34,131 nucleotides of DNA from a virus. Positions 20,953-34,131 of this stretch are shown in pieces. The notes beneath the pieces were generated by a model. It had not been told where the DNA came from and searched no databases. It worked only from the letters and a program-made list of their open reading frames with translations. Position numbers and translations under genes: made by a program. Positions within the stretch are counted from its first letter, which is position 1. Every line of letters starts with the position of its first letter. Where the stretch lies: positions 1 through 34,131 of the IMG/VR virus record IMGVR_UViG_3300049893_001899, one strand, 5' to 3'.

Positions 20953-20953
20953 G

Positions 20954-21129: not shown

Positions 21130-21131
21130 TT

Positions 21132-21221: not shown

Positions 21222-21226
21222 AAAAC

Positions 21227-21304: not shown

Positions 21305-21309
21305 ATAAT

Positions 21310-21385: not shown

Positions 21386-21410
21386 CATCGCCTCACACGC
21401 TTACTTATAT

Positions 21411-21485
21411 TGGTAGTAGTGGTAAGATTCGAACTTACACCTGACACCGTATGAAGGTGGCGCACTACCATTATGCTACACTACC
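21411..21485 (-). tRNA. tRNA with CAU anticodon (Met, elongator or Ile2)
   Basis: Acceptor GGTAGTG/CACTACT with a G1-U72 wobble, D-stem GCA/TGC, anticodon loop TTCATAC (CAU), T-stem GTAAG/CTTAC, CCA encoded. CAU may be elongator Met or lysidine-modified Ile; the sequence alone does not decide. Confidence 0.88.
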
Positions 21486-21489
21486 ATTC

Positions 21490-21563
21490 TGGTTGTCCTG
21501 ACAAGAATCGAACTTGTGTTATACGATTATCAGTCGTAGGTTCTACCATTGAACTACAGGACA
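21490..21563 (-). tRNA. tRNA-Ile(GAU)
   Basis: Acceptor TGTCCTG/CAGGACA, anticodon loop CTGATAA (GAU) on TACGA/TCGTA, CCA encoded. Confidence 0.92.
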
Positions 21564-21564
21564 A

Positions 21565-21640
21565 TGGTGGTGCCTGTTAGAATCGAACTAACTTCATCGG
21601 TTCTTCAGACCGCTGCAATGACCACATTTGCTAAAGCACC
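21565..21640 (-). tRNA. tRNA-Phe(GAA)
   Basis: Acceptor GGTGCTT/AGGCACC, D-stem GCAA/TTGC, anticodon loop CTGAAGA (GAA), CCA encoded. Confidence 0.9.
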
Positions 21641-21647
21641 TTACTGC

Positions 21648-21722
21648 TGGGGTGTCTAACGGGTACCGACCCCGTACCTACTCTTTCACAGAGAGTAATG
21701 CTACCACTACACTATAGACACC
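21648..21722 (-). tRNA. tRNA-His(GUG)
   Basis: Acceptor GTGTCTA/TAGACAC with an encoded G-1 opposite C73 (the His identity pair), anticodon loop CTGTGAA (GUG), CCA encoded. Confidence 0.92.
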
Positions 21723-21729
21723 ATTGTTC

Positions 21730-21824
21730 TGGTAGTAGACCTAGGATTCGAACCTAGCCGTTGCAGCCCATCTGACCACTCTCCAGAGTTTATAAGTCTC
21801 CGCCGCACACCAGTGCTGTCTACC
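21730..21824 (-). tRNA. Atypical 95-nt class-II-like tRNA, anticodon uncertain
   Basis: Acceptor GGTAGAC/GTCTACT (G1-U72), T-arm CTAGG-TTCGAAT-CCTAG and CCA are sound. The anticodon arm pairs CGGAG with CTCTG and leaves a 9-nt loop ACTTATAAA, or a 7-nt loop CTTATAA (UAU) with an A-A mismatch at 31-39. The extra arm is about 26 nt with only a CAG/CTG pairing. If one T is ignored the loop is that of Leu(UAA), the amino acid otherwise missing from the array. Possibly decayed, or a true unusual tRNA. Confidence 0.6.
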
Positions 21825-21826
21825 AT

Positions 21827-21900
21827 TGGCCTCGGTGGAGAGAATCGAACTCCCACTAACGGTTTTGGAGACCGCTGCGCTGCCATTACGCCACACCGAG
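21827..21900 (-). tRNA. tRNA-Trp(CCA)
   Basis: Acceptor CTCGGTG/CACCGAG, anticodon loop CTCCAAA (CCA), discriminator G, CCA encoded. Confidence 0.92.
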
Positions 21901-21904
21901 ATAT

Positions 21905-21979
21905 TGGAGCGGGTAGTCAGATTCGAACTGACGACATTTTCCTTGGCAAGGAAACATTCTACCCCTGAATTATACCCGC
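21905..21979 (-). tRNA. tRNA-Gly(GCC)
   Basis: Acceptor GCGGGTA/TACCCGC, anticodon loop TTGCCAA (GCC) on TTTCC/GGAAA, CCA encoded. Its first base is the last base of the TAG stop of the RNase H-like gene. Confidence 0.92.
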
Positions 21980-22446
21980 TACGCTACTAAACTTTTAAAT
22001 CTATCTGCCGCATAACTTGCAGCAAATGCTTTTGGTTTTATCAATGGTATCACATTACACGTACCACGTATATAACCAATCGCTTCATTTACCACACATG
22101 AACTACCATGCATTTCACTTGGGTTGATATCCAAATGAATCTGTATATCATGTGGTATTACTTCATACAATTTCAAATACAAATCTGCCACTTTATAAAC
22201 TTCATTCATCAACCGAAATCGTGGCCGACTTTTCTTTTGTTCGAAATCACGTTCACGCTGTACAGCACCAAATATCTTACACCCATGACGACCATCGATA
22301 TGAATTACAACAGCAAGAATGTAATCAGCATACCATTCGCCGTCAATCTGAAATCGTTCAGAATCAGCACCGATATACACTTTTGTATCGGGACCACATG
22401 TTTCAAGAAATGCGGCCACTTCGTTCACATCAATTTCTTTTTTCAC
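21979..22446 (-). CDS. RNase H-like fold protein (DUF458 type)
   Basis: A 155-residue protein placed inside the tRNA array. KVYIGADSERF (Asp28) opens a strand-turn typical of RNase H-like folds, followed by KIFGAVQRERDFEQKKSRPR, RLMNEVYKVADLYL, then HLDINPSEMHGSSCVV (Asp106) and IRGTCNVIPLIKPKAFAASY. This order is that of DUF458-like proteins, predicted nucleases found in phages and bacteria. Start is GTG 22446. The stop overlaps the first base of tRNA-Gly(GCC). Location between tRNA genes suggests an RNA-related role, but this is inference. Confidence 0.75.
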   Translation of the reverse strand: MKKEIDVNEVAAFLETCGPDTKVYIGADSERFQIDGEWYADYILAVVIHIDGRHGCKIFGAVQRERDFEQKKSRPRFRLMNEVYKVADLYLKLYEVIPHDIQIHLDINPSEMHGSSCVVNEAIGYIRGTCNVIPLIKPKAFAASYAADRFKSLVA

Positions 22447-22460
22447 GTTTCGCCTGTAAA

Positions 22461-22536
22461 TGGTAGCGGGTGTTGGATTCGAACCAACGATCTTCAGAGT
22501 ATGAGCCTAACGGGATGACCACTTCCCTAACCCGCA
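22461..22536 (-). tRNA. tRNA-Met(CAU), initiator-like
   Basis: Position 1-72 is an unpaired U-U while 2-7/66-71 pair (GCGGGT/ACCCGC), as expected of bacterial initiators, and the segment GGCTCATA is initiator-like. However the anticodon stem is TTAGG/TCTGA, not three G-C pairs. CCA encoded. Confidence 0.85.
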
Positions 22537-22543
22537 ATAAAAC

Positions 22544-22619
22544 TGGTGCCGATTGCAGGACTTGAACCCACCACCTGACGCTTACAAGGCGCCTGCTCTA
22601 CCAGATGAGCTAAATCGGC
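22544..22619 (-). tRNA. tRNA-Thr(UGU)
   Basis: Acceptor GCCGATT/AATCGGC, anticodon loop CTTGTAA (UGU), T-loop TTCAAGT, CCA encoded. Confidence 0.92.
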
Positions 22620-22629
22620 AATAAAACTT

Positions 22630-22704
22630 TGGTGGAGAATAGCAGATTCGAACTGCTGACTGTAGAATGCAAATCTACTGCGTTCCCAATTACGCCAATT
22701 CCCC
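22630..22704 (-). tRNA. tRNA-Ala(UGC)
   Basis: Acceptor GGGGAAT/ATTCTCC with the G3-U70 pair that defines alanine tRNA; anticodon loop TTTGCAT (UGC), CCA encoded. Confidence 0.92.
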
Positions 22705-22796
22705 ATATTGAAGTGTTCTGCTGTTCACAGATCGGGAATTCCAGCCCCCAAAGTCTTGTTAAACTTTTACATGCCACCCTAAACAACACTTCAATA
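22705..22796 (-). ncRNA. Structured inter-tRNA RNA element 1 (92 nt)
   Basis: Fills the gap between tRNA-Arg and tRNA-Ala with no spare bases: it starts right after the CCA of tRNA-Arg and ends at base 1 of tRNA-Ala. Ends form a perfect 12-bp stem, TATTGAAGTGTT with AACACTTCAATA. Inside are smaller hairpins (AAAGT/ACTTT, CTGT/ACAG). No OR frame of note. RNase P and tRNA 3' processing would free it as a stable RNA. Function unknown. Confidence 0.65.
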
Positions 22797-22872
22797 TGGC
22801 CGGTCCTGAGAGAATCGAACTCCCACCTGCGGGTCCGTAGCCCGCCGTAATCATCCATTTTACTAAAGACCG
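22797..22872 (-). tRNA. tRNA-Arg(ACG)
   Basis: Acceptor CGGTCTT/AGGACCG, anticodon loop CTACGGA (ACG, probably read as ICG), CCA encoded. Confidence 0.92.
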
Positions 22873-22873
22873 T

Positions 22874-22955
22874 TGGTGGGTTGAGTAGGGATCGAACCTA
22901 CTTGCCGAAGCCACGGATTTACAGTCCGCTGCCCTACCATTAGAGCATTCAACCC
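22874..22955 (-). tRNA. tRNA-Tyr(GUA)
   Basis: Class II, 82 nt; acceptor GGGTTGA/TCAACCC, anticodon loop CTGTAAA (GUA), short GGCTTCGGC variable hairpin, CCA encoded. Confidence 0.92.
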
Positions 22956-22963
22956 AATAACAC

Positions 22964-23039
22964 TGGCAGGGAGTATAGGATTCGAACCTATGCATGTCGG
23001 AATCAAAATCCGATGCCTTACCAACTTGGCGAACTCCCA
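22964..23039 (-). tRNA. tRNA-Gln(UUG)
   Basis: Begins TGGGAGT like bacterial Gln tRNAs, with an open U1-U72; anticodon loop TTTTGAT (UUG), discriminator G, CCA encoded. Confidence 0.9.
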
Positions 23040-23165
23040 ACAATATTAGAATTGCAGTCTGCACTATTTGCTATGCTCAACGGAATGACCGGCCGGCTTT
23101 ACCGTTTGTGTACATAGTTACGCAGGCATGATCAAGCCCATGGCTTACAGACTGCAAATCTAATA
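23040..23165 (-). ncRNA. Structured inter-tRNA RNA element 2 (126 nt)
   Basis: Starts exactly after the CCA of tRNA-Asn and ends 4 nt past its stem, at tRNA-Gln. Ends form an 18-bp stem with one mismatch (TATTAGATTTGCAGTCTG region with 23044-23061). The interior holds AAGCC-ATG-GGCTT and nested CTATG/CATAG and AACGG/CCGTT helices, so a compact multi-hairpin RNA is predicted. No open frame. Function unknown. Confidence 0.65.
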
Positions 23166-23240
23166 TGGCTGCTCAGGTAGGGATCGAACCTACGACACAC
23201 GGATTAACAGTCCGCTGATCTACCACTGATCTACTGAGCA
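23166..23240 (-). tRNA. tRNA-Asn(GUU)
   Basis: Acceptor TGCTCAG/CTGAGCA, anticodon loop CTGTTAA (GUU), discriminator G, CCA encoded. Confidence 0.92.
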
Positions 23241-23247
23241 ACAAACT

Positions 23248-23325
23248 TGGCGACATGTACGGGATTCGAACCCGTGGTCTCCGCCGTGACAGGGCGGCGC
23301 ATTAGGCCAACTATGCTAACATGCC
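23248..23325 (-). tRNA. tRNA-Asp(GUC)
   Basis: Acceptor GGCATGT/ACATGTC, anticodon loop CTGTCAC (GUC) on CCGCC/GGCGG, discriminator G, CCA encoded. Confidence 0.92.
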
Positions 23326-23399
23326 ATATTGAAGCACATTGGGACTCCATTGGAGTTAATTATCTTTGGAACAACCCTCAGAACCAATGTGCTTCAATA
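23326..23399 (-). ncRNA. Structured inter-tRNA RNA element 3 (74 nt)
   Basis: Fills the gap between tRNA-Lys and tRNA-Asp exactly. Perfect 16-bp terminal stem, TATTGAAGCACATTGG with its complement (23384-23399), extendable by 3 bp into the CCA; loop of 41 nt with an ACTCC-AAT-GGAGT hairpin. The stem opening TATTGAAG is shared with element 1. Function unknown. Confidence 0.65.
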
Positions 23400-23476
23400 T
23401 GGTAGGTGCGGTGGGATTCGAACCCACGACTCTCAGATTAAAAGTCTGATACTCTAACCAGCTGAGTTACACACCC
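23400..23476 (-). tRNA. tRNA-Lys(UUU)
   Basis: Acceptor GGGTGTG/CGCACCT with G1-U72, anticodon loop CTTTTAA (UUU) on TCAGA/TCTGA, CCA encoded. Confidence 0.92.
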
Positions 23477-23486
23477 ATAATATAAT

Positions 23487-23561
23487 TGGTACACCCAACC
23501 GGATTCGAACCGGTGTTACTGCCGTGAAAGGGCAATGTCCTGACCACTAGACGATGGGTGC
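23487..23561 (-). tRNA. tRNA-Glu(UUC)
   Basis: Acceptor GCACCCA/TGGGTGT with G1-U72, anticodon loop CTTTCAC (UUC), CCA encoded. First tRNA after the array promoter. Confidence 0.92.
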
Positions 23562-23598
23562 ATCTCACAAATTTTTTAAAGATCAATCAACAAACAAC

Positions 23599-23627
23599 AT
23601 TCTACAGAAACATCAAAACTTTGTCAA
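23599..23627 (-). promoter_or_regulatory. Promoter of the tRNA array (TTGACA-17-TAGAAT)
   Basis: -35 TTGACA (23627-23622), 17-nt spacer, -10 TAGAAT (23604-23599), about 40 nt upstream of tRNA-Glu. It would transcribe the main tRNA array. Confidence 0.75.
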
Positions 23628-23635
23628 CTACTTTT

Positions 23636-23712
23636 TGGTCTGAGTGGAGAGGATCGAACTCCCGACCTCCTGCTCCCAAAGCAGGCATTCTACCAGGCTG
23701 AACTACACTCAG
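23636..23712 (-). tRNA. tRNA-Pro(UGG)
   Basis: Acceptor CTGAGTG/CACTCAG, anticodon loop TTTGGGA (UGG) on CCTGC/GCAGG, CCA encoded. Lies upstream of the array promoter and just below the terminator, so it depends on read-through. Confidence 0.92.
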
Positions 23713-25994: not shown

Positions 25995-26150
25995 TTAAAA
26001 AATAGATGACAGTGCAGCAGCACCGTTCATTGCTGAAATAATCAAATAGACAAATGCCCAACCAGGTCGCCCTTCATCAGCGGCGACCGTAGACATATTC
26101 CAAAAAAGAAATACAAACAAAAATTGTAAAGCAAAAATAATGATGCCCAT
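25995..26150 (-). CDS. Small membrane protein (51 aa)
   Basis: From ATG 26150 (RBS GGAA): MGIIIFALQFLFVFLFWNMS is one hydrophobic helix and WAFVYLIISAMNGAAALSS a second, joined by a short charged loop (ADEGRPG). The GTG at 26177 is an alternative start. Two-TM inner-membrane protein; role unknown. Confidence 0.65.
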   Translation of the reverse strand: MGIIIFALQFLFVFLFWNMSTVAADEGRPGWAFVYLIISAMNGAAALSSIF

Positions 26151-26151
26151 G

Positions 26152-26397
26152 TCATTCCAATAATGTACGACTTTCACGATCCCAAAAAAACTGCACTGCC
26201 CGTTTAGCGGATTCTAAATTGATATACTGGCCAAGATGCTTTTCATCCTGAACCGTGAAAGTGTACTCACCCGTATACACCAGACCAATCCAAACTTCCT
26301 GGAGTGCAATCTTGCTTACTGTACCGACAATCTTACCAGTCAAGGTGTCATAATAATAGTATTTCTCAGAATACCGTTCCCAGTCATAATCTTTCAT
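26152..26397 (-). CDS. Conserved phage protein (81 aa)
   Basis: Aromatic beta-rich protein: MKDYDWERYSEKYYYYDTLTG, then GTVSKIALQEVWIGLVYTG and HLGQYINLESAKRAVQFFW. I recall the same YYYYD...GxVSKIA... pattern in other phages; function unknown. It overlaps the next gene (26394). Confidence 0.75.
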   Translation of the reverse strand: MKDYDWERYSEKYYYYDTLTGKIVGTVSKIALQEVWIGLVYTGEYTFTVQDEKHLGQYINLESAKRAVQFFWDRESRTLLE

Positions 26398-26558
26398 TGG
26401 CGAAACACCAGACTTTGCGTGATGGTATCAGTCACAGAACAAATGAAATAGGCCACATCTTCTCCATAGAGATTTTCCTCTATATTAACAAACTTCACTT
26501 CACTTGTCAAGTGTTCATCGCCACACTCACGACATTTCACCACAAACGATTCATTCAT
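26394..26558 (-). CDS. Small Cys-containing protein, partial zinc ribbon (54 aa)
   Basis: Start at ATG 26558: MNESFVVKCRECGDEHLTSE with a CxxC pair (Cys9, Cys12); the expected second pair is reduced to one Cys (YFICSVTD). In related phage proteins a second CxxC completes a zinc ribbon. It may be a degenerate or alternative metal site. Function unknown. Confidence 0.65.
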   Translation of the reverse strand: MNESFVVKCRECGDEHLTSEVKFVNIEENLYGEDVAYFICSVTDTITQSLVFRQ

Positions 26559-26875
26559 TAAGCAATACCTGTCCATTGTAGGCGATTCAGATAAGTGCCT
26601 GAATCAAACACATTCCCACGCACAAAGTTCTTTGCTGGTGCTTTCCATGAAGCCGCTTTCCAGATGTTACCCGTTTCTTTCTCTACGAACGAGTGTACCG
26701 AGCGGGAGCCACCAGCCGAGATTTTCACGACCTTTACGTACTTAGACCCCGGCTCAAACTCAACACCGAACTGTCCGATGTCCGAGATACCGGCATCACC
26801 ACACCATTTCACATAGTTCGCCACGATATTATCTTTGTAACCAATCAGCGCAACAGCCAGATCATCTTTCACCAT
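26558..26875 (-). CDS. Conserved phage protein (105 aa)
   Basis: Start at ATG 26875 after GGAGA: MVKDDLAVALIGYKDNIVAN. The conserved-looking core is YVKVVKISAGGSRSVHSFVE, then GNIWKAASWKAPAKNFVRG. Widely shared by large phages; function unknown. Basic, could bind nucleic acid. Confidence 0.8.
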   Translation of the reverse strand: MVKDDLAVALIGYKDNIVANYVKWCGDAGISDIGQFGVEFEPGSKYVKVVKISAGGSRSVHSFVEKETGNIWKAASWKAPAKNFVRGNVFDSGTYLNRLQWTGIA

Positions 26876-26886
26876 GTTTTTCTCCA

Positions 26887-27087
26887 TTACAAAACAGTTT
26901 CACAGTATTTGTATTTCAACAACTTAGCCGTATCTTTATCATACAGCCAAGTCAGCGCACACCATACAGAATCCGAAACACTATAATACTCACGATACCG
27001 AGTATAAACTTCGGCAAACCAATTTTCATCATTCCGTGCGGCACAATAGTCTTGTGCCCGTTTCAAATACTCCATTTTGTTCATCAC
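26887..27087 (-). CDS. Hypothetical protein (66 aa)
   Basis: Helical, Tyr-rich protein (MNKMEYLKRAQDYCAAR, then YREYYSVSDSVWCALTWLYD). ATGATGA junction with the gene at 27084. No motif recognised. Confidence 0.7.
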   Translation of the reverse strand: MMNKMEYLKRAQDYCAARNDENWFAEVYTRYREYYSVSDSVWCALTWLYDKDTAKLLKYKYCETVL

Positions 27088-27404
27088 GCAAACTCCATTT
27101 CAAGTTCTTTCGGTGAATAAACAATGCAGCCATCCCACTCCAGCTGGCTACGCTCATACTCTGTCAGATAGTCATCCTCAACCAACTGTAGATCAACCAC
27201 AGTCTCACGGAAGTAATCATTTGATACCTCAACCTGAGCCTTCACCTCTGCCAGAATCCGAGTCATTTGCGATTTATCAACATTCCGCACCACGTACTCA
27301 TCACCACCTTTAGGTTTGAAATATGCATCCTCACCGGTACCAATCGTACCGTCCTCACGCCATGCATAATTCTCATAGACCTGTGTAGTAAATATTGCTT
27401 TCAT
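27084..27404 (-). CDS. Conserved phage protein (106 aa)
   Basis: MKAIFTTQVYENYAWREDGT, then KPKGGDEYVVRNVDKSQ and an acidic C-terminal half (VEDDYLTEYERSQLEWDG). A family known from other large phages, function unknown. First gene of the operon from the promoter at 27435. Confidence 0.75.
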   Translation of the reverse strand: MKAIFTTQVYENYAWREDGTIGTGEDAYFKPKGGDEYVVRNVDKSQMTRILAEVKAQVEVSNDYFRETVVDLQLVEDDYLTEYERSQLEWDGCIVYSPKELEMEFA

Positions 27405-27434
27405 GACAACCTCATCTCAATCTCAACAGAGTCC

Positions 27435-27463
27435 ATTATAGCCGAGGCACCCCACTTTGTCAA
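27435..27463 (-). promoter_or_regulatory. Consensus sigma70 promoter (TTGACA-17-TATAAT)
   Basis: -35 TTGACA (27463-27458), 17-nt spacer, -10 TATAAT (27440-27435). The -35 overlaps the stop of the 44-aa gene. Identical 12-nt -35 block GGTTGACAAAGT with 24872. Confidence 0.85.
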
Positions 27464-27594
27464 CCATTATTCTGACCATTCCGACGAAAGTATTCCAGCC
27501 ACCCATCGTTAGTATCCTGATAACGAAGCCATAGTGTTATCAAAAGATTCACGACCAGAAAAATTGCAATTCCAACAAGTATTTTTATGCTCAT
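27460..27594 (-). CDS. Small membrane protein (44 aa)
   Basis: ATG 27594 overlaps the stop of the preceding gene (ATGA). MSIKILVGIAIFLVVNLLIT is a single TM helix, followed by a soluble tail (LRYQDTNDGWLEYFRRNG). Role unknown. Confidence 0.7.
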   Translation of the reverse strand: MSIKILVGIAIFLVVNLLITLWLRYQDTNDGWLEYFRRNGQNNG

Positions 27595-28004
27595 AATAAC
27601 ATGAATAGTGCAATAATGATACCAATGACAATTAGATATGGTAATAGCAATAGTAGTCTAAATGATAATACCAGCAACCACCATGCCACCTTGAATGGTA
27701 GCAATAGTAGTCCCAGCAACAGCATTACCATAATATCATCTCCAGCATTACCTTTCCTTGACGAGCGACTCCTGCGAACCTTGCTTCCAATTGTCCTACT
27801 CTTCCGTGTAATCCAACCATTGCGATTATCAGTGGTCGTTTGTCGCATAGTACCATTTTTGTTCCACGACCATGAGTACGTGCGCTTATTCTTACCACCT
27901 AGTGAGCCTTTAGTGGTGTTAGTGATCCGTGTACCCTTTGAAGATTGTGTCGTGGTTCTTCGTGTGGTGTCACCGGTCTTCTTCGTTTTGCGCTTATAGG
28001 CCAC
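27591..28004 (-). CDS. Basic N-terminus plus two-TM protein (137 aa)
   Basis: GTG start at 28004 overlapping the previous stop (TAGTG). Residues 1-85 are Lys/Arg/Thr-rich and hydrophilic (KRKTKKTGDTTRRTTTQSSK). Residues about 90-137 form two hydrophobic helices. The plus strand also has a long frame here, but the minus frame is coupled at both ends. Function unknown. Confidence 0.65.
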   Translation of the reverse strand: MAYKRKTKKTGDTTRRTTTQSSKGTRITNTTKGSLGGKNKRTYSWSWNKNGTMRQTTTDNRNGWITRKSRTIGSKVRRSRSSRKGNAGDDIMVMLLLGLLLLPFKVAWWLLVLSFRLLLLLPYLIVIGIIIALFMLL

Positions 28005-28189
28005 TAATCTTCGTAGTCCTCATCATCATAGTCTTCGCCATCATAAAAGAATTCATTCAACCGTGCCATATCCGCTACATCATCTTCGGACATATACTTC
28101 AGACAAGCCATGATCACGGTGTCACGATCCAGCAGTCCATCTTCAACCAACTCCAGGACACGATTCGTTGCTTGACGGGTTTGGTACAT
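28004..28189 (-). CDS. Conserved small phage protein (61 aa)
   Basis: MYQTRQATNRVLELVEDGLLD, then VIMACLKYMSEDDVADMARLNE and an acidic tail (YDGEDYDDEDYED). I recall this MYQTRQAT family in many large phages; function unknown. RBS GGAGG 8 nt before ATG 28189. Confidence 0.8.
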   Translation of the reverse strand: MYQTRQATNRVLELVEDGLLDRDTVIMACLKYMSEDDVADMARLNEFFYDGEDYDDEDYED

Positions 28190-28360
28190 CCTATACCTCC
28201 AAAAAAAATTTTTGTGCGATTCAGTGGCGGATTTGCGATTTCACTGGAGTTCGGCGTCAATAAGGTTTGCTTTGAAATAGCATGTTCCTTTGAGGAGGCT
28301 CATTGTCTAGACCGCTTATCGATTTCACCATACACCACACCACACACTGCCCCCGCTGCC
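28190..28360 (-). other. Gene-free stretch
   Basis: 171 nt between the 61-aa gene and the 42-aa frame. Only frames under 25 codons are present, without RBS. It has an A/T run (AAAAATTTTTTTT) just before the GGAGG RBS of the next gene and a direct repeat TGCGATT. No promoter of the consensus type found here. Confidence 0.5.
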
Positions 28361-28489
28361 CTATGCCCCCTCAGGGCGCCCGTACATCTCCAGTATATTG
28401 TTCACTGTTAGCACTGCCACGCCCAAGTAATTAGCAATGAAGGGCACACTGCATCCCGCATCACTCATCTCCAGGATTTCAATTACCAA
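28361..28489 (-). CDS. Probable HTH-like miniprotein
   Basis: Frame from TTG 28489 (42 codons) or ATG 28468 (35 codons). VIEILEMSDAGCSVPFIANY then LGVAVLTVNNILEMYG reads as a helix-turn-helix unit, like the 44-aa protein at 28875. The start overlaps the end of the 69-aa gene, and the ATG has GGAG too close, so the start is unsure. Function unknown. Confidence 0.5.
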   Translation of the reverse strand: MVIEILEMSDAGCSVPFIANYLGVAVLTVNNILEMYGRPEGA

Positions 28490-28688
28490 GTTCTTGTAGT
28501 AGCCCATTTATTTCCTCATCCTCATCATAGGGATTAATCTTCGGCGGCTTACGGGTGTTAGGATTTTCTCCGTACACCTTTACATCACCGTTGCGCCCAC
28601 CTGCCACCACAGTACGGGGTGCCATGTAGACTTCAAACTCCTGCACGGCCTCTGCTACTTCAGCCTCACTAAACAATGCTTTTTTCAT
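28479..28688 (-). CDS. Small protein sharing its N-terminus with the next gene (69 aa)
   Basis: MKKALFSEAEVAEAVQEFEV opens like the neighbouring 58-aa protein (MIKALFTDADVAEATK). The rest is hydrophilic and Pro/Asn-rich (ENPNTRKPPKINPYDEDEE). TAATG junction at 28688. Function unknown. Confidence 0.7.
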   Translation of the reverse strand: MKKALFSEAEVAEAVQEFEVYMAPRTVVAGGRNGDVKVYGENPNTRKPPKINPYDEDEEINGLLQELGN

Positions 28689-28864
28689 TATGCAAAGGCC
28701 TTCGTTGGGTAGCCAGCAGCAATACCACCAGAGCCCTTCACAAAGCCCTTAGAGGCTTTGGCACGGCATACTGGCTTTTTGGCCTTACGGGGCTTACACA
28801 CAGTGGCACCCATGCCTTTGGTGGCCTCTGCTACATCGGCATCAGTAAATAGTGCTTTAATCAT
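28688..28864 (-). CDS. Small basic protein (58 aa)
   Basis: ATG 28864 after AAGGAG; stop overlaps the next ATG (TAATG). MIKALFTDADVAEATKGMG, then a Lys/Ala/Gly-rich, Cys-containing basic tail (KPRKAKKPVCRAKASKG). The codons are richer in C and G at third positions than those of most genes in this window. Probably a paralogue of 28479 by its N-terminus. Function unknown. Confidence 0.7.
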   Translation of the reverse strand: MIKALFTDADVAEATKGMGATVCKPRKAKKPVCRAKASKGFVKGSGGIAAGYPTKAFA

Positions 28865-28874
28865 ATTATGCTCC

Positions 28875-29009
28875 TTACAGTTTCCAGGTCTTAATGGCTT
28901 CGGCTACATCACCCACTGCAATGTTCAGCAGAGCAGCAATACGCCACACAGGATAGCCAAGGTACTTCAAGGTGGCTATCTCATTAATCGTTTCACGGCG
29001 GATAATCAT
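28875..29009 (-). CDS. HTH-like miniprotein (44 aa)
   Basis: MIIRRETINEIATLKYLGYP, then VWRIAALLNIAVGDVAEAIK, a single helix-turn-helix-like unit (about residues 8-38). ATGA overlap with the upstream stop at 29006. May be a small DNA-binding protein or a partner of one. Function unknown. Confidence 0.7.
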   Translation of the reverse strand: MIIRRETINEIATLKYLGYPVWRIAALLNIAVGDVAEAIKTWKL

Positions 29010-29170
29010 AATTTCATTCCATTTGCAAGATAAGCAATATAACCAGGGTTCTTGTTCAACACCACCACAGGCTCAATACCTAACACCACACCGGTCTTTG
29101 CAAAGGCCTTTGTAGCATAGGCCACAGCGGCTCTCAAGGTCTTAAACTTTCTGCCATCACAGGTAAACAT
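29006..29170 (-). CDS. Small conserved phage protein (54 aa)
   Basis: Start at ATG 29170 after AAGGAG: MFTCDGRKFKTLRAAVAYAT, then VLGIEPVVVLNKNPGYIAYL. Compact alpha/beta protein. The longer frame to 29194 adds leader-like residues. First gene after the promoter at 29201. Function unknown. Confidence 0.7.
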   Translation of the reverse strand: MFTCDGRKFKTLRAAVAYATKAFAKTGVVLGIEPVVVLNKNPGYIAYLANGMKL

Positions 29171-29200
29171 CACAATCTCCTTATCAATCACCACAAGGAC

Positions 29201-29229
29201 ATTATACTGGCACCAGCGGAATCTGTCAA
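29201..29229 (-). promoter_or_regulatory. Consensus sigma70 promoter (TTGACA-17-TATAAT)
   Basis: -35 TTGACA (29229-29224), 17-nt spacer, -10 TATAAT (29206-29201), preceded by GG as in other early promoters here. Confidence 0.85.
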
Positions 29230-29233
29230 CCAG

Positions 29234-29395
29234 TTATTCGGCAAACTTAGCACCCACAGGGCGACTAGTAATTGCTAAAGTGTAAACACCCCGATTTGCT
29301 TTGATTATACGCAACATTGTTTTTTTGCTACCCTTTGCAGCAACTAGATTTGTTGCTTTTTCGACAATGGCATAATAGTTCGACGGCTTTATCAT
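29234..29395 (-). CDS. Small basic protein (53 aa)
   Basis: MIKPSNYYAIVEKATNLVAA, then KGSKKTMLRIIKANRGVYTL and a beta end. ATGA overlap with the upstream gene (29392-29395). Basic, possibly nucleic-acid binding. Function unknown. Confidence 0.65.
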   Translation of the reverse strand: MIKPSNYYAIVEKATNLVAAKGSKKTMLRIIKANRGVYTLAITSRPVGAKFAE

Positions 29396-29520
29396 TTTGC
29401 TATCTTCCTGTCACGTATCGCATCCCACGCAATGTAGCCCATTGCAAAAGGTGCAATTGTCAGAAAAACAACCACCGCACCATCGGCCACATACAAAAGC
29501 CAGTTCAGAAAATCCATCAT
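29392..29520 (-). CDS. Small membrane protein (42 aa)
   Basis: ATG 29520 overlaps the previous stop (ATGA). MMDFLNWLLYVADGAVVVFL then TIAPFAMGYIAWDAIRD forms one or two TM helices with a charged end. Role unknown. Confidence 0.7.
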   Translation of the reverse strand: MMDFLNWLLYVADGAVVVFLTIAPFAMGYIAWDAIRDRKIAK

Positions 29521-29693
29521 ACCGCATCCTTAATTAAACGATAACCTTCTGCTACATTGAACAGATTCGCCCGTTGCCAGTCCCACAAGTCCGTTACACG
29601 ATTATATACAGGACCGAACAACCAGTCATTACCATCGGCGGTGTAGACTTTGGTTTGCCAGCCGCCGGGAACATTCAGACAAGAAATTTCCAT
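29517..29693 (-). CDS. Small conserved phage protein (58 aa)
   Basis: Start at ATG 29693: MEISCLNVPGGWQTKVYTAD, then NDWLFGPVYNRVTDLWDWQR and a helical end. Trp-rich. The frame upstream of 29693 overlaps the 25-aa TM peptide in another frame and is not used. Function unknown. Confidence 0.65.
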   Translation of the reverse strand: MEISCLNVPGGWQTKVYTADGNDWLFGPVYNRVTDLWDWQRANLFNVAEGYRLIKDAV

Positions 29694-29697
29694 TTTA

Positions 29698-29775
29698 TTA
29701 ACCCAGAGTAGTAACAGTAGTAGCCAAGGCGCCCCACACAAACAACGCCACACATAGTATCAGAAAAGCAATCAT
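29698..29775 (-). CDS. 25-aa single-TM microprotein
   Basis: MIAFLILCVALFVWGALATT spans nearly the whole peptide. GGAG RBS before ATG 29775. Sits between the promoter at 29808 and the next gene. Function unknown. Confidence 0.55.
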   Translation of the reverse strand: MIAFLILCVALFVWGALATTVTTLG

Positions 29776-29807
29776 CTCAATCTCCACAATCATCTCATCA
29801 CGGTTAG

Positions 29808-29836
29808 ATTATGGCGGAATTGCGGTAGATTGTCAA
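29808..29836 (-). promoter_or_regulatory. Sigma70 promoter (TTGACA-17-CATAAT)
   Basis: -35 TTGACA (29836-29831), 17-nt spacer, -10 CATAAT (29813-29808). Shares TTCCGCCATAAT and a downstream TGATGAG with the promoter at 32989. Confidence 0.8.
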
Positions 29837-29837
29837 C

Positions 29838-30184
29838 CATTTTGTGGTGCGGCAGCCAGGGTGGCGGGCGGTGCAGCAGGACATGCTGCGGTACATACTA
29901 GGGGTAGTATGCGGTGCTGCGGAAAACACTACATCTAGTATGCCGCCACCACGCACGGTTCCAGCACGCCATAAATAGTGCGGTCACAGCCCACAAAATC
30001 CCACAAAATCCCACTATTCTACACTACCATAGCACGGTGTAATGCATTATATTGCAGGTAATTGAGAATCATTATCACTGGCCTGAATAACACGCCTCCT
30101 GCACACCACCGCACACCACAATCTACCAACAAAGCACCACAATTACCACTAAGCGGTACAAAGTTCGGTCGCTCCTACGCTCTC
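29838..30184 (-). other. 347-nt gene-free, GC-richer, hairpin-rich interval
   Basis: No frame of more than about 30 codons on either strand with a start signal. It contains GCAGCA-GGACA-TGCTGC (29873-29889), CATACTA-GGGG-TAGTATG (29894-29911), a tandem CCCACAAAAT repeat (about 29990-30012) and repeated GCGGTGC units. It lies between the end of the 67-aa gene and the promoter at 29836. It may hold a non-coding RNA, terminators or an origin/regulatory region. Confidence 0.5.
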
Positions 30185-30388
30185 CTATACCATCTCCGAA
30201 CGGTCTTTGCTTATCAACTTAGCCCATCGCTTATGAAATTGTGCTATATCCGTCATCACCTTATGGGGGTGTTGTCCGTATATAAATGCTATCATGGCTA
30301 GTTCAGCGGCACCGTCACCATCTACTGTTATCATTTTAGCAGCCATCTCCACGGCGTCCTGATAGGTCTTGGTGCGGAATTTAGGCAT
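30185..30388 (-). CDS. Hypothetical protein (67 aa)
   Basis: MPKFRTKTYQDAVEMAAKMI, then GDGAAELAMIAFIYGQHPHK and a basic helical end. TAATG junction with the 52-aa gene. No motif recognised. Confidence 0.7.
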   Translation of the reverse strand: MPKFRTKTYQDAVEMAAKMITVDGDGAAELAMIAFIYGQHPHKVMTDIAQFHKRWAKLISKDRSEMV

Positions 30389-30546
30389 TAGTAAACTTCA
30401 CGCTCATATATGTCAAACTCATCAATTACACCGTCTACCACTAGGCCTTCGCCATAGTACAGTGCAGAATCATAGTCTCCAAATACACGTAGCACGGTAT
30501 CACCCTCATATGGTATCACTTCAACAACAATAAAAACTTTGTTCAT
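30388..30546 (-). CDS. Small acidic protein (52 aa)
   Basis: MNKVFIVVEVIPYEGDTVLR, then VFGDYDSALYYGEGL and a beta end (EFDIYEREVY). Likely a small beta/alpha fold; similar openings (VxVVEVI...YEGD) occur in phage proteins. RBS AGGAG before ATG 30546. Function unknown. Confidence 0.7.
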   Translation of the reverse strand: MNKVFIVVEVIPYEGDTVLRVFGDYDSALYYGEGLVVDGVIDEFDIYEREVY

Positions 30547-30581
30547 TTTGATAACTCCTCGTTTTCTCTCTCAACATGGAT

Positions 30582-30610
30582 ATTATCGCTGGAATGTGGG
30601 GAATTGTCAA
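30582..30610 (-). promoter_or_regulatory. Sigma70 promoter (TTGACA-17-GATAAT)
   Basis: -35 TTGACA (30610-30605), 17-nt spacer, -10 GATAAT (30587-30582), upstream of the 52-aa gene. Confidence 0.75.
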
Positions 30611-30626
30611 GAGGTAGATTTTGTTG

Positions 30627-30875
30627 TCAAATTGGAATGTTACTCCAGGTCTTGAGCTTTTGGCGCTTATCTTTGGAGTGGAGCTGGATTCTTGTCTCGT
30701 CTACCAGCTGGTGTTCAATGCACAGGTCAATCATACACTGAAGGTCGCCTAGTTCTTGTTCTAGTCTTTTAATGTTATCTGAGTGGTGTCCGAATCGGTG
30801 TATCTTTGAGACTATCTGAATTACTTCGGCGGCTTCTTCCTGTAGTATAGTGAGAATCTCGGTCGTGGTGTTCAT
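30627..30875 (-). CDS. MazG-like nucleotide pyrophosphohydrolase
   Basis: An 82-residue helical protein with the MazG-type metal motif E-x-x-E ... E-x-x-D: Glu14/Glu17 (EEAAEVIQIVSK) and Glu41/Asp44 (LEQELGDL). Short single-domain members of this superfamily in phages hydrolyse NTPs or dNTPs to NMPs. The second half (MIDLCIEHQLVDETRIQLH) fits the helical bundle. It may cleanse the nucleotide pool or lower alarmone levels; substrate unproven. Overlaps the next gene by ATGA. Confidence 0.8.
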   Translation of the reverse strand: MNTTTEILTILQEEAAEVIQIVSKIHRFGHHSDNIKRLEQELGDLQCMIDLCIEHQLVDETRIQLHSKDKRQKLKTWSNIPI

Positions 30876-31045
30876 GGGCTATACTTTGCATCGGCTATGA
30901 TCAATGCACCAAGGATAATCCATAGAATGCCCCATACAGGAAAGCCAAGGGCAAGGTCAGCAAGTCCGTTTAGTATATTAATGGTACCGATTGTATAGCC
31001 GATAGGTCTACGGTACTTCATTATTTTTTCATACAATGTTTTCAT
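30872..31045 (-). CDS. Small membrane protein (57 aa)
   Basis: Start at ATG 31045 after GGAGCATAAT: MKTLYEKIMKYRRPIGYTIG, then two hydrophobic stretches (INILNGLADLALGFPV and WGILWIILGALIIAD). A two-TM inner-membrane protein. Role unknown. Confidence 0.7.
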   Translation of the reverse strand: MKTLYEKIMKYRRPIGYTIGTINILNGLADLALGFPVWGILWIILGALIIADAKYSP

Positions 31046-31046
31046 A

Positions 31047-31223
31047 TTATGCTCCGTTGGGTGATTGTTCATTTGCTCTCAGCCGTTCTATCTCATCGGC
31101 TGCCTCTTCCAGCAGGTCGGCAATGCGGTCGGGTTTGTTTTCTTGTACAGACTTGCGGTCGGGAATCTGGCGGCGTATCTCAGCCCGTTTTCGCAGTCGG
31201 TATACCAGGTCTTGTTCATTCAT
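31047..31223 (-). CDS. Small conserved coiled-coil protein (58 aa)
   Basis: MNEQDLVYRLRKRAEIRRQI, then PDRKSVQENKPDRIADLLEE and AADEIERLRANE, a helical, charged protein of a type common in phages. RBS GGAG before ATG 31223. Its stop lies 1 nt from the next start. Function unknown. Confidence 0.75.
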   Translation of the reverse strand: MNEQDLVYRLRKRAEIRRQIPDRKSVQENKPDRIADLLEEAADEIERLRANEQSPNGA

Positions 31224-31468
31224 TGGTTAACTCCGAAATGTTCTAATACAGCAATGGCATAATGTGTAGGTGTTTGATTAATATCTGGCGGAACTTTTCG
31301 TTCTATAGCATTATCATACATTACTTTTACACATTCCCGCACAATCAACTCGGCAAACTTTTCAAAGTCTGATAGTTTAAGATAATAGATTGTCTCAGGT
31401 TCTAATGGGAAATCATCATCAAATTCAATACCAGCCTGTTCCGCAAGTTTTCTAATTCGTTCGGTCAT
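31220..31468 (-). CDS. Small conserved phage protein (82 aa), paralogue of 31614
   Basis: MTERIRKLAEQAGIEFDDDF, then a conserved FEKFAELIVRECVKVM (about 35-50) and an end HYAIAVLEHFGVNQ. The FAELI-x-x-EC and HFGV-x-Q blocks recur in the gene at 31614. Widely seen in phages; function unknown. Confidence 0.75.
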   Translation of the reverse strand: MTERIRKLAEQAGIEFDDDFPLEPETIYYLKLSDFEKFAELIVRECVKVMYDNAIERKVPPDINQTPTHYAIAVLEHFGVNQ

Positions 31469-31617
31469 TTTATGTCCTCAAACTCACATTTGCAAAATTG
31501 ATATTCAAAACAAGTTTCATCTATTGGCAGATAGTCAAAGTCTGGACAATAATGCTTGTACTTACCTTCCAGTATTTTACCATAGAAGTGTAAGCAGTCT
31601 TGTTCAAAATCAGTCAT
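31465..31617 (-). CDS. Small Cys-rich protein (50 aa)
   Basis: MTDFEQDCLHFYGKILEGKY, then HYCPDFDYLPIDETCFEYQF and CKC. ATGA overlaps at both ends (31465-31468, 31614-31617). Cys pairs suggest metal binding or disulphides. Function unknown. Confidence 0.7.
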   Translation of the reverse strand: MTDFEQDCLHFYGKILEGKYKHYCPDFDYLPIDETCFEYQFCKCEFEDIK

Positions 31618-31829
31618 TGGTCAACTCCGAAATGTTTTAGAATCTTATCAGCGCAATAATGACCATCCATTCCCTTATCGCCCAGTTCTTCACATATACC
31701 TAAGCATTCCTGAATAATCAACTCGGCAAACTTGAGTATAGCAGTGCGGTCATAGTCATCCATCTGATCCCAGCCGCCTTGAGCCGTCAGACCTGCCTGA
31801 TACATCAAATCGTCAAACTTGTCGGTCAT
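31614..31829 (-). CDS. Small conserved phage protein (71 aa), paralogue of 31220
   Basis: MTDKFDDLMYQAGLTAQGGW, then ILKFAELIIQECLGICEELG and ILKHFGVDQ. Repeats the FAELI-x-x-EC ... HFGV-x-Q layout of the gene at 31220. Function unknown. Confidence 0.75.
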   Translation of the reverse strand: MTDKFDDLMYQAGLTAQGGWDQMDDYDRTAILKFAELIIQECLGICEELGDKGMDGHYCADKILKHFGVDQ

Positions 31830-31837
31830 TGGTCATC

Positions 31838-32011
31838 TCAGTTCTTATCTACTGGCACACCAATGATTGTACACTGTACATTGCGTGGCAGTGTTTTTTC
31901 ACACTCGGTTAGTGCTTTTCTTTCAGCAGATTTTCCGGTGTCATAGCCCAGAAGACCGCCTATAAACAAAGCAAAAATTACAACAAAAAGTCCAAATACA
32001 TTTTCCATCAT
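31838..32011 (-). CDS. Membrane-anchored small protein (57 aa)
   Basis: MMENVFGLFVVIFALFIGGL is one TM helix, followed by a soluble part ALTECEKTLPRNVQCTIIGV with two Cys. ATG 32011 overlaps the previous stop. Phage proteins with the ECEKTLPRN block occur widely; function unknown. Confidence 0.75.
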   Translation of the reverse strand: MMENVFGLFVVIFALFIGGLLGYDTGKSAERKALTECEKTLPRNVQCTIIGVPVDKN

Positions 32012-32277
32012 TCACTCCTTGGTAAATTATATTGTCGGGTATACTGGCTCGTCACTGAGCCGTGGATTGGTGGTGCTTCATATTGTACATTAGATTCTAC
32101 GGGCAAATCAAATGCCGCCCGTATGATTTTTTTGTCGGCTTGTGAGCCGCATAGTTGGGCGCAGTGTTCAGCCACTCGTTTGACCAGTTCTTCAATTAGC
32201 ACAATTTGCTTGGTGTTGGTCAGGTATGTCATATCAATGCCGACCTCATCACAGTATTTTTGAGTATTCTTATTCAT
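32008..32277 (-). CDS. Hypothetical protein (89 aa)
   Basis: Start at ATG 32277, which overlaps the 27-aa peptide stop. MNKNTQKYCDEVGIDMTYLT, then a helix VLIEELVKRVAEHCAQLCGS, then a hydrophilic tail. The frame extends upstream to a TTG at 32313 with no RBS. No motif recognised. Confidence 0.65.
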   Translation of the reverse strand: MNKNTQKYCDEVGIDMTYLTNTKQIVLIEELVKRVAEHCAQLCGSQADKKIIRAAFDLPVESNVQYEAPPIHGSVTSQYTRQYNLPRSE

Positions 32278-32357
32278 AGCGGTGTCTTGTGAAAAAGGTA
32301 CAGACATATGCAAATCGCCAGCATAAAGCCGGCGTACCAGAAGTGGTCAAATTTCAT
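32274..32357 (-). CDS. 27-aa single-TM microprotein
   Basis: MKFDHFWYAGFMLAICICLY and a short basic end. Stop overlaps the ATG of the 89-aa gene (ATGA), indicating coupling. The RBS is weak. Function unknown. Confidence 0.5.
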   Translation of the reverse strand: MKFDHFWYAGFMLAICICLYLFHKTPL

Positions 32358-32379
32358 TTTTTGAGCATTTTTGACTGGT

Positions 32380-32574
32380 TTAATTCAATTTCAATGCTCT
32401 GGCAGCAGATTTATTTGCTTCAGAGAATGCATAATCATTTGACAGGCTATTGTAGCCGTCATAGAATTTCCACTCACCGTTGACCAGTCGTTCTACTTTT
32501 ACATCATACAGTACATCAAACGGACTGCCATCATGCACAATCCGCACGGTACCAAAATCTTTCGCAATATACAT
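32380..32574 (-). CDS. Hypothetical protein (64 aa)
   Basis: MYIAKDFGTVRIVHDGSPFD, then VERLVNGEWKFYDGYNSLSN and a helical end. Probable small beta-rich fold. Its ATG lies at the stop of the 68-aa gene. Function unknown. Confidence 0.7.
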   Translation of the reverse strand: MYIAKDFGTVRIVHDGSPFDVLYDVKVERLVNGEWKFYDGYNSLSNDYAFSEANKSAARALKLN

Positions 32575-32780
32575 TATAATACTCCCGCTATCTCATTTTC
32601 ATTCAAAATAACCGAATCACGCACCGCACCGAATACATTAATCGGATTGTCTAGCGTTACATGATGCGACATACCACTACCATATTTTACACGACTCAGC
32701 CTCACCGTACCTGATACGGGGTAGTCACCCATATACATACCGATCACACGCATACCGTCAAGAAAAGATTCACCGATCAT
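32574..32780 (-). CDS. Hypothetical protein, SH3-like beta fold (68 aa)
   Basis: MIGESFLDGMRVIGMYMGDY, then GTVRLSRVKYGSGMSHHVTL and a final strand (SVILNENEIAGVL). The order of strands suggests a small beta barrel. Overlaps the next gene by ATGA. Function unknown. Confidence 0.7.
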   Translation of the reverse strand: MIGESFLDGMRVIGMYMGDYPVSGTVRLSRVKYGSGMSHHVTLDNPINVFGAVRDSVILNENEIAGVL

Positions 32781-32956
32781 ACAGCCTCCACAGGAGCAAA
32801 CATTTTAGCACCCTCACGCATAAAGTTTTTCAACTCACGGCGCACCTCAGAAGGAAACTCGTCCTCATATTCTAAAATAAAAGCAATTGCCTCAAGGGTT
32901 TTGTACCCACGTGCAATCCGAATAGATTCAACTTCAGCCATTAGATTCTTAAACAT
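32777..32956 (-). CDS. Hypothetical protein (59 aa)
   Basis: Start at ATG 32956 after GGAGA: MFKNLMAEVESIRIARGYKT, then LEAIAFILEYEDEFPSEVRR. Helical, acidic. First gene after the promoter at 32989. Function unknown. Confidence 0.7.
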   Translation of the reverse strand: MFKNLMAEVESIRIARGYKTLEAIAFILEYEDEFPSEVRRELKNFMREGAKMFAPVEAV

Positions 32957-32988
32957 TTGACATCTCCAAATCAACTCATCACAGTGTA

Positions 32989-33017
32989 ATTATGGCGGAA
33001 AGTCAGGGGTTTGTCAA
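32989..33017 (-). promoter_or_regulatory. Sigma70 promoter (TTGACA-17-CATAAT)
   Basis: -35 TTGACA (33017-33012), 17-nt spacer, -10 CATAAT (32994-32989). Shares TTCCGCCATAAT with the promoter at 29808. Confidence 0.8.
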
Positions 33018-33262
33018 GGGCTATTATTTGTTTCTAGATTGATAACTGATTTCTTTTTGATACAGACAAAGGAACCTTGCTTTTCTTGAAACAAGATACC
33101 GTTGCGATTTTGACAAGCCTCTTCGGCAGCCTGGAATTGGCTACGGACTACATTGTAACCCGTAATTGCTACTAGTACACAAAAGGCATAAAAGGAGTAC
33201 AGTACGACATACTCCCAATTAATTCTCTCCAACAGCAGGTCTATTTTCGTTCTCATTTCCAC
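33014..33262 (-). CDS. Membrane protein (82 aa)
   Basis: MEMRTKIDLLLERINWEYVV, then a TM helix YSFYAFCVLVAITGYNVV and a soluble C-terminal half with two Cys (EEACQNRNG, SFVCIKKK). Its stop overlaps the -35 at 33012. Role unknown. Confidence 0.65.
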   Translation of the reverse strand: MEMRTKIDLLLERINWEYVVLYSFYAFCVLVAITGYNVVRSQFQAAEEACQNRNGILFQEKQGSFVCIKKKSVINLETNNSP

Positions 33263-33488
33263 TCACACAAACATCACCAACAAAAATGTATACATTTGAA
33301 TCTATAGACTTTTGTGCATACAATTGATTATTATAGCACAAATAAGGGTCTTTGTAATTCTGCATTGCATAGTATGCCGCAAAGCCTATGCCACCTAAAA
33401 TCATCAATATTGGAATGTATTTGATATACTTGACTATCTCAGGCATAGCACCCAATAATTTGGGTAACATTTCCAACAATTGCTTCAC
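33219..33488 (-). CDS. Membrane protein (89 aa)
   Basis: MKQLLEMLPKLLGAMPEIVK, then a TM segment IPILMILGGIGFAAYYA and a Cys-containing tail (YLCYNN, DVCVSGN). I recall related proteins in marine phages. Overlaps its neighbour by 44 nt. Role unknown. Confidence 0.7.
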   Translation of the reverse strand: MKQLLEMLPKLLGAMPEIVKYIKYIPILMILGGIGFAAYYAMQNYKDPYLCYNNQLYAQKSIDSNVYIFVGDVCVSGNENENRPAVGEN

Positions 33489-33688
33489 TTCACTTTACCT
33501 TTGCTTTTTACTGCCTCCGATAGCATACCTTTAATCACCAGCAGCACACGATTTTTTTCTCTTTCGGTCAGGTGTTGTACCAACATGAGTTTATCTTCAT
33601 ATGATTTTGCATTGTCTAGAAACTCTTTTGGTACTTCAATTTTTTTCTTTTTTGGTCTGTATTTTTTGAAGTCTGGATTGTCTGACAT
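33485..33688 (-). CDS. Small basic protein (67 aa)
   Basis: MSDNPDFKKYRPKKKKIEVP, then a helical, charged segment (DNAKSYEDKLMLVQHLTERE) and a basic end. ATGA overlap with 33219-33488. Function unknown. Confidence 0.65.
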   Translation of the reverse strand: MSDNPDFKKYRPKKKKIEVPKEFLDNAKSYEDKLMLVQHLTEREKNRVLLVIKGMLSEAVKSKGKVK

Positions 33689-33727
33689 TTGATGCTTTGT
33701 TGGTTTATCACCAAATCATGGCACTAT

Positions 33728-33967
33728 TTATTCTATACAGTCTTTCATCTCACGCCAATAGTTTCGCTCTGCCCAATGCACAATGCACCAGTCTTCAATG
33801 CATTGCTCTGAGGTGAGTTTTTCATCGGGTTCACCATTGTCAACCATTTTTAAAAACCAATGTATCCAATATTGATCTAGTATTTCTTTTTCAGACAATG
33901 TTTCCCAATGATCATATTCATGACCTGATTCTGTTACATCGGGATAAACGATGGTGTAGTATTTCAT
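33728..33967 (-). CDS. Hypothetical protein (79 aa)
   Basis: Start taken at ATG 33967, which overlaps the preceding stop (ATGA): MKYYTIVYPDVTESGHEYDH, then WETLSEKEILDQYWIHWFLK. Trp-rich, acidic. The longer frame to 33997 overlaps the upstream gene. No motif recognised. Confidence 0.65.
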   Translation of the reverse strand: MKYYTIVYPDVTESGHEYDHWETLSEKEILDQYWIHWFLKMVDNGEPDEKLTSEQCIEDWCIVHWAERNYWREMKDCIE

Positions 33968-34131
33968 GTCGGCACAAACCCTGGCTTTGTTACCCACAGT
34001 TTACCAATTGGACCACATTCTTCACCAATCATTCTCATTGCTCGGCAAGTTCTTTTCGAATGATTACCATAGACAGGATCATCAAACTTCAAGGCCTGCG
34101 GATGTAAGCAAAAAGCCTCTTTATCAGAGGC
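33964..34131 (-). CDS. C-terminal part of a phage hypothetical protein (cut by window edge)
   Basis: A 55-codon frame running in from the right edge: FCLHPQALKFDDPVYGNHSK, then GEECGPIGKLWVTKPGFVPT. The CGPxGKLW ending is typical of small phage proteins with scattered Cys. ATGA overlap with the next gene. Start lies outside the window. Confidence 0.65.
   Translation of the reverse strand, partial: ASDKEAFCLHPQALKFDDPVYGNHSKRTCRAMRMIGEECGPIGKLWVTKPGFVPT

Follow-up and report, generated by a model that had tools for sequence, protein, structure and literature searches.

A conserved, probably cis-acting DNA site beside a predicted early promoter in an uncultivated relative of phage T4

What is the function of a 347-nt interval (positions 29838-30184) that carries no convincing gene in a gene-dense phage genome? 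The DNA analysed here, called the window, is an entire IMG/VR record of 34,131 bases, classed as linear, and by our reading its minus strand carries nearly all of its likely genes. A preliminary description had depicted the interval as gene-free, GC-rich and hairpin-rich, and had proposed that it might encode a non-coding RNA or act as an origin, packaging or recombination site. The gap is real: no other uncovered stretch of the window is as long as the 228 nt at 29957-30184 within the interval, where uncovered means free of minus-strand ORFs of at least 40 aa, of RNA genes and of the one long plus-strand ORF; by a similarly crude measure, the corresponding element is not the longest gap in two large related records, G005 and G010. 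Four ORFs of at least 40 codons overlap the interval, all starting with GTG or TTG: one on the minus strand (29804-29956, 50 aa), which crosses the promoter discussed below, and three on the plus strand (42, 44 and 79 aa), the 79-aa one being antisense to a 67-aa gene. This last gene (30185..30388, minus strand) has no match in Pfam or PHROGs and ends at the upstream border of the interval. GC content is 0.516 in the interval and 0.403 in the window overall, and 0.2% of 347-nt windows are as GC-rich; the repeats described earlier, the tandem CCCACAAAAT (29990-30009) together with the words TGGTGCGG and TGCTGCGG, are likewise present. The abundance of hairpins holds in part: an inverted repeat is found at 29894-29908/29928-29942 and the minus strand folds more stably than most of 100 shuffles (z -2.42, 2 as good or better), whereas the plus strand does not stand out (z -0.60, 26 as good or better). 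One weak intrinsic terminator lies in the interval (29995-29979, minus strand).

Judged by its genes, the phage is an uncultivated relative of phage T4. The window encodes a T4 RNase H-like exonuclease, and the major capsid protein Gp23 family (PF07068), searched for in the relatives' records, was matched in three of six (G005, G010 and G007), the other three being the shorter ones of 63-82 kb. Since the three larger records share genes or DNA with the window and carry Gp23, the window belongs with the T4-type phages. One conserved window protein has relatives in 27 phage records, with 25-33% identity among the 15 matches listed.

The element was compared in 20 members, assembled from IMG/VR and the window (W). 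Two neighbouring window proteins used as queries brought 3 and 49 loci; L059, L061, L062 and L069 were obtained by a pattern of the repeat array described below, L104 by a pattern of its tail, and L195-L205 by applying a model made from earlier members to records fetched by a membrane protein. The members are related, so that the counts given here are not counts of independent events; most records are fragments, and the set of modules varies between subgroups. L203 and L206 were left out of the 20, while L101 (array only) and the match in record G014 were kept as candidates and not counted; five pattern-search rows (L063, L064, L065, L067 and L105, the last of which looks coding) were dismissed as chance. 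Model R1, run on whole records, matched 12 of 24 at E 0.1, nine of these 12 being its building sequences, and missed G005, which carries the array; at E 0.01 it matched 11 of 49, leaving ten records and seven distinct elements once L203 is set aside.

Only the near half of the interval (about 29837-30024), adjoining the early promoter, is common to relatives, and it is conserved in part. Variable content among relatives, which the preliminary description had named as evidence against a function, is indeed found in the far half (30025..30184), where no relative aligned over at least 60 nt and which, two small motifs excepted, is not shared as a block with the fetched relatives. Of the near half, array and tail are retained even in G010, whose proteins are about 35-68% identical to those of the window. 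In G010 the array, at 71,824, directly follows homologues of window genes 33,728, 31,220 and 31,614 and precedes homologues of 20,337, 21,979 and 24,449, a broadly window-like order; homologues of 30,627 and 32,574 sit elsewhere (at 102.7 and 90.1 kb), some gene order is changed, and the majority of small genes around the element of the window lack a homologue in G010. Although L013 and L040 have flanking DNA in common with the window, neither the array nor a model match was found in their partial records (G013 and G016). Array and tail gave no match in host genome contigs; among isolated phages no DNA match was found to the region or to the array stretch of L008, and seven short matches to the L061 stretch were taken as chance. 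Array and model R1 were absent from Rhizobium RHph_I1_18, Caulobacter Cr30, Synechococcus BUCT-ZZ01 and Variovorax V45v66, and R1 had no match in T4. No description of the element was found in the accessible parts of the literature searched, including PMC4177764, PMC3016281, PMC7145576, PMC2984593 and PMC3014915, subscription journals being mostly beyond reach.

The core of the near half is an array of the form GTG N7 GTG N7 GTG N7 GTG (29992..30024, minus strand), with an exact period of 10 nt, one helical turn per unit; the two copies of CCCACAAAAT, read on the other strand, are part of it. Four units are present in 15 of the 20 members, three in 3 and none in 2 (L011 and L205). When both strands of a mostly non-redundant pool of 605 kb were searched, the fourfold GTG-N7 pattern gave 12 matches, all at the element, from 11 sources, 4 of which had been fetched by a pattern containing the array. 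GTG at control periods of 6 to 17 other than 10 gave 0-2 matches, except for six at period 9 in one record, and control triplets at period 10 gave at most 2, the exceptions being AAA and TTT (12 each) and CAC, which is GTG on the other strand. The four-GTG array is not explained by chance. It occurs in seven of the eight distinct elements reached without the array pattern, by the first two protein searches and the window itself (W, L003, L004, L005, L008, L009, L011 and L031); the exception, L011, has a different upstream sequence and the same tail. Of 17 whole records 12 contain it, each at a single place, and this includes records as long as 172 and 169 kb; in one of the 12 it shows two overlapping registers. 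Weak second model matches occur in G034 (L206) and G019, so that the statement of one place per record is valid for the four-GTG array only.

The array is accompanied by a conserved tail, TGTGACCGCACTA (29976..29988, minus strand), whose commonest form is TGCAAACGCACTA; CGCACTA is present in 17 of 20 members, and in the part shared by relatives the common form reads ATGCAAACGCACTA. Comparison of L195 with L104 reveals an insertion of exactly 10 nt separating array and tail, and in L196 and L204 the tail precedes the array. In G014, a more distant phage, a match with three GTG at period 10 lies in a region of short ORFs (L120 483-508, E 6e-4), with the array opposite in orientation to a MazG-like gene; together with the tail-first arrangement of L196 and L204, this reversed array indicates that the order of the modules is not fixed. 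Near 1501 in L203 and L206 (records G048 and G034) the array-tail model also matched weakly, at two GTG spaced at period 10; there the hairpin-capable GCAATCGCAC/GCAAAGGCAC, with the word GCAA..GCAC, stands directly before a PstS-like gene named by eye.

Overlapping the tail, on the opposite strand to nearly all likely genes, is a T4-type late-promoter motif, CATAAATA (29970..29977, plus strand). The late promoter is reported as NATAAATA for cyanophage S-PM2 and as TATAAATA for T4 in the accessible text of PMC2984593. At the site in the window NATAAATA is found, as CATAAATA. The likeness to a T4-type late promoter lies in the letters of the motif; the difference is that this copy faces against almost all likely genes. 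The motif [TC]ATAAATA occurs on the counter strand in 12 of the 20 members and on the array strand in none, and its position relative to the dyads described next differs between subgroups. In G005 and G010, ATAAATA favours the gene strand by 24 to 3 and 19 to 1, as expected of late promoters, and in the window by 6 to 2; there TATAAATA stands just before a tail-fibre-like gene starting at 12,006 (weak PHROGs match).

Further modules resemble operators. Two dyads of the form ACTA-N4-TAGT (29928..29939 and 29897..29908, both on the minus strand) are 31 nt apart from start to start, about three helical turns; together they make up the strongest inverted repeat (29894-29908/29928-29942), which recurs in relatives; 9 of 20 members have the pair when up to 2 mismatches are allowed. 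The two small motifs are a 14-bp near-palindrome, TGCAATATAATGCA (30043..30056, minus strand), matching TGCA[AT]TATA[AT]TGCA in four of 20 members (W, L011, L104 and L195), and a Fur-type box, TGATAATGATTCTCA (30063..30077, minus strand). The consensus of Fur boxes, TGAKAATNATTMTCA, has a 7-1-7 arrangement, and the window's box has no mismatch to it; the box in L204, TGAGAATGATTCTCA, is a perfect 7-1-7 as well, and that in L205 has one mismatch. When up to one mismatch is allowed, all loci examined together have seven distinct boxes; three belong to elements and lie just upstream of array or tail, on the side away from the promoter. The window and L204 share the 7-1-7 form with known Fur boxes; unlike these, the element's boxes are phage-borne and present in three of 20 members, and binding of Fur to them is putative.

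Just outside the interval lies a strong promoter of the sigma-70 type, TTGACA-17-CATAAT (29808..29836, minus strand), with 11 of 12 consensus letters; in relatives the shared part continues into TTGACA-17-TATAAT and then a short membrane peptide. A promoter-like site with TTGACA or TTGCCA is present downstream of array or tail in 19 of 20 members, at a distance of 87 to 345 nt from the anchor. Array, tail, counter-strand late motif, dyad pair and sigma-70 promoter recur together in relatives, whereas in the 250 nt upstream of 30 other strong promoters, taken by a stricter pattern from the window, G005 and G010, there is no tail, late, Fur or palindrome module and no dyad, even with one mismatch allowed; since these 30 were chosen without the four-GTG array, they are a valid control for the other modules only. 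Near-consensus sigma-70 promoters on the minus strand (11-12 of 12 letters) that face leftward small genes number five in the window (27435-27463, 29201-29229, 29808-29836, 30582-30610 and 32989-33017), and 45 promoter-like sites, against 19.3 expected, are found in 26000-34131; the -10 and leader after the 32989 promoter are 85% like those after the 29808 promoter over about 40 nt.

Downstream of the promoter is the gene for a membrane micropeptide (29698..29793, minus strand), of 31 aa, or 25 aa from an inner ATG. With a simple pattern, a conserved single-helix membrane peptide of 24-34 aa (..WGVLAAAPGAVTTLG-like) was found downstream of the element in 13 of 20 members. It was also seen in L163, with no element in view; an alignment search of viral contigs with this short query returned 140 candidate stretches, none of them confirmed.

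Taken together, the interval is supported as a cis-acting DNA site, as the preliminary description had proposed; the arguments, drawn from sequence comparison, are the helical phasing, the single array per record where one is found, a neighbourhood that is broadly kept, and modules that outlast the turnover of flanking genes. Lengths are kept while letters change (the 10-nt period, the 31-nt spacing of the dyads, the 10-nt insertion), which points to DNA rather than RNA as the form in which the site acts. Such a conserved control site probably binds proteins, to switch phage genes or to start DNA copying.

The reading to which we give most weight, still tentatively, is that the interval forms the non-coding part of a modular control locus for divergent early and late transcription. 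It is favoured because promoters and operator-like modules cluster here, among the small leftward genes of a T4-type phage, and the modules are present in the 20 members as against none of the 30 other strong promoters. A phage or host protein would bind the array along one face of the helix; in some lineages the Fur-type box or the 14-bp near-palindrome may supplement or replace its site. Early in infection the sigma-70 promoter would drive leftward transcription of the micropeptide gene and those that follow; at a later stage polymerase modified by the phage would initiate at ATAAATA on the opposite strand and transcribe the array in the rightward direction, producing RNA antisense to early genes. 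Late transcripts begin about 6 nt downstream of a T4-type late promoter. With this spacing, that of T4, the late transcript, if the motif is active, would start near 29983 and contain the array in its first 50 nt or so, and a protein bound there could block or time transcription and so bring about an early-to-late switch. Several observations weigh against the control locus: 8 of 20 members lack the late motif, 11 the dyad pair and 5 the full set of four units; no second four-GTG array occurs near other promoters, unlike the sites of a general regulator; and the 87-345 nt spread of the promoter distance is awkward for a simple operator.

A replication origin, one of the earlier proposals, is the chief alternative but less probable, and the evidence on it is mixed. 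The array would then act as iterons for an initiator, and the transcript of the early or the late promoter would open or prime the site. Short direct repeats, evenly spaced, are indeed found, with at least three units in 18 of 20 members, one four-GTG place per record in 12 of 17 records (those of 172 and 169 kb among them) and a neighbourhood broadly kept despite gene turnover. According to the accessible part of PMC3016281, the 12-nt repeats of T4 oriE are regularly spaced and this origin seems to require an early promoter, and T4 oriC may need a late one; the same source states that T4 origins use phage promoters, so that the origin and the control locus do not exclude each other. Resemblance to the oriE 'iterons' consists in evenly spaced direct repeats near an early promoter of a T4-type phage. 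It ends there: the repeats that we found adjoining oriE in phage T4 (L111 5403-5570) are 24 nt apart and inside gene 5, where the coding of the protein, not a role as a DNA site, may preserve them, whereas the present array is non-coding, with four units at a 10-nt period; moreover, the role of the oriE repeats is described as unproven in the part of PMC3016281 available. The iteron origins of plasmids and satellites, such as the RepA_N iterons of PLE (PMC7145576, seen in part), are alike in being non-coding direct repeats with A/T tracts and differ in unit and period; an iteron origin has a cognate initiator that binds the repeats, and one for the present array is hypothetical. Against an origin, no AT-rich unwinding element is seen in a stability profile computed over 29500-30700, in which most 60-nt windows of the interval exceed the average stability of the window, and neither GC skew nor gene strand switches at the element in G005 or G010. 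In L061, the member inspected by eye for DnaA boxes, TTATTCACA and TTATCCACT-like words were noticed.

A further possibility is a nucleoprotein locus, in which a fixed protein array of four helical turns would sit at the start of the counter-directed late promoter, with Fur boxes in some lineages, and the timing, as a switch or as origin firing, would be tied to a host regulator, for example an iron sensor; we regard this elaboration as rather improbable. The subject deserves attention, as to our knowledge there has been little study of early/late timing and of the choice of origin in T4-type phages beyond laboratory strains. The element offers a concrete, conserved cis site of defined geometry, once per record, that is open to testing, with a possible link to a host metal regulator. 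The accessible part of PMC3016281 indicates that even in T4 the role of the oriE repeats is unsettled.

Two further explanations are less likely than a control locus or an origin. The T4-type phages reportedly possess regulatory cassettes named PeSL (promoter early stem-loop), said to have been described by Arbiol et al. in 2010 and to be present in many copies at the gene boundaries of one genome. A recombination-prone cassette of this kind, which would shuffle small genes and keep its letters as shared homology, seems unlikely. The likeness lies in an intergenic early promoter adjoining an inverted repeat in a gene-shuffling region: the two lie together, neighbouring small genes differ among relatives, and the L011 element precedes a different promoter and gene. 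Many copies per genome were not found, however; the array, here accompanied by a tail and a counter-strand late motif, occurs once per record and not at many junctions, and none of the tail, late-motif, dyad, Fur-box or palindrome modules accompanies any of the 30 other strong promoters.

A non-coding RNA, either structured and made from the minus strand or acting by its sequence as a late antisense RNA from the plus strand, is distinctly improbable. It agrees with the minus-strand fold in the window and with the late motif that 12 of 20 members carry on the counter strand, and an antisense RNA, CfrI, is reported for the T4-like phage S-PM2 in the accessible text of PMC2984593. The dyad pair is able to form a conserved hairpin, with 91.5% paired cells and a covariation score of 0.222, each reached by none of 500 shuffles, both measures being inflated by the relatedness of the rows. 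Pairs changed on both sides, however, were reached by 124 of 500 shuffles and further pair types by 405 of 500, neither of which is unusual, and each arm of the repeat is itself near-palindromic, so that operator dyads explain the pairing equally well. A structured form of the RNA that had been suggested found no backing in Rfam and no consistent backing in the folds: at gathering score the window has 24 Rfam matches, all tRNA or tmRNA and none in the interval, and over 12 members no consistent fold emerged, one strand of one member beating all 100 shuffles (L031, z -3.53) and the remaining z-scores, from -1.76 to +0.83, scattering around the shuffled values. RNAalifold gave consensus energies of -5.89 and -8.96 kcal/mol for the two strands, with covariation terms of -0.12 and +0.13, and by eye the sequence after the tail is not conserved between subgroups. 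That the interval is leftover DNA without function is highly improbable: relatives do not have the far half as a block, but the near half is kept in modules and spacing, array and tail persisting at the protein divergence of G010, and for 29837-30024 sequence comparison contradicts this reading.

Other features of the window were noted in passing. A permuted, two-piece tmRNA gene (3417-3786, minus strand), matched by the Rfam families beta_tmRNA and tmRNA_permuted, encodes the tag peptide ANDNYYAMAA; 22 tRNA genes for 19 amino acids, with none for Leu, occupy 19678-23712 (minus strand), and G005 and G010 have 26 and 34 tRNA/tmRNA places, respectively. A rubrerythrin/ferritin-like phage protein is encoded at 19058-19666 (minus strand). 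Beside the tail-fibre-like genes, 12377-12919 and 12879-15523 (minus strand) contain a ClpP-like protease, sugar epimerases and a glycosyltransferase, as well as an ORF named by eye as nucleotidyltransferase-like. On the plus strand, a long ORF at 17999-18873 (264 aa), for which neither Pfam nor PHROGs gave a match, is preceded at a distance of about 80 nt by CATAAATA in the same orientation, and both the protein and its upstream motif are also found in G005.
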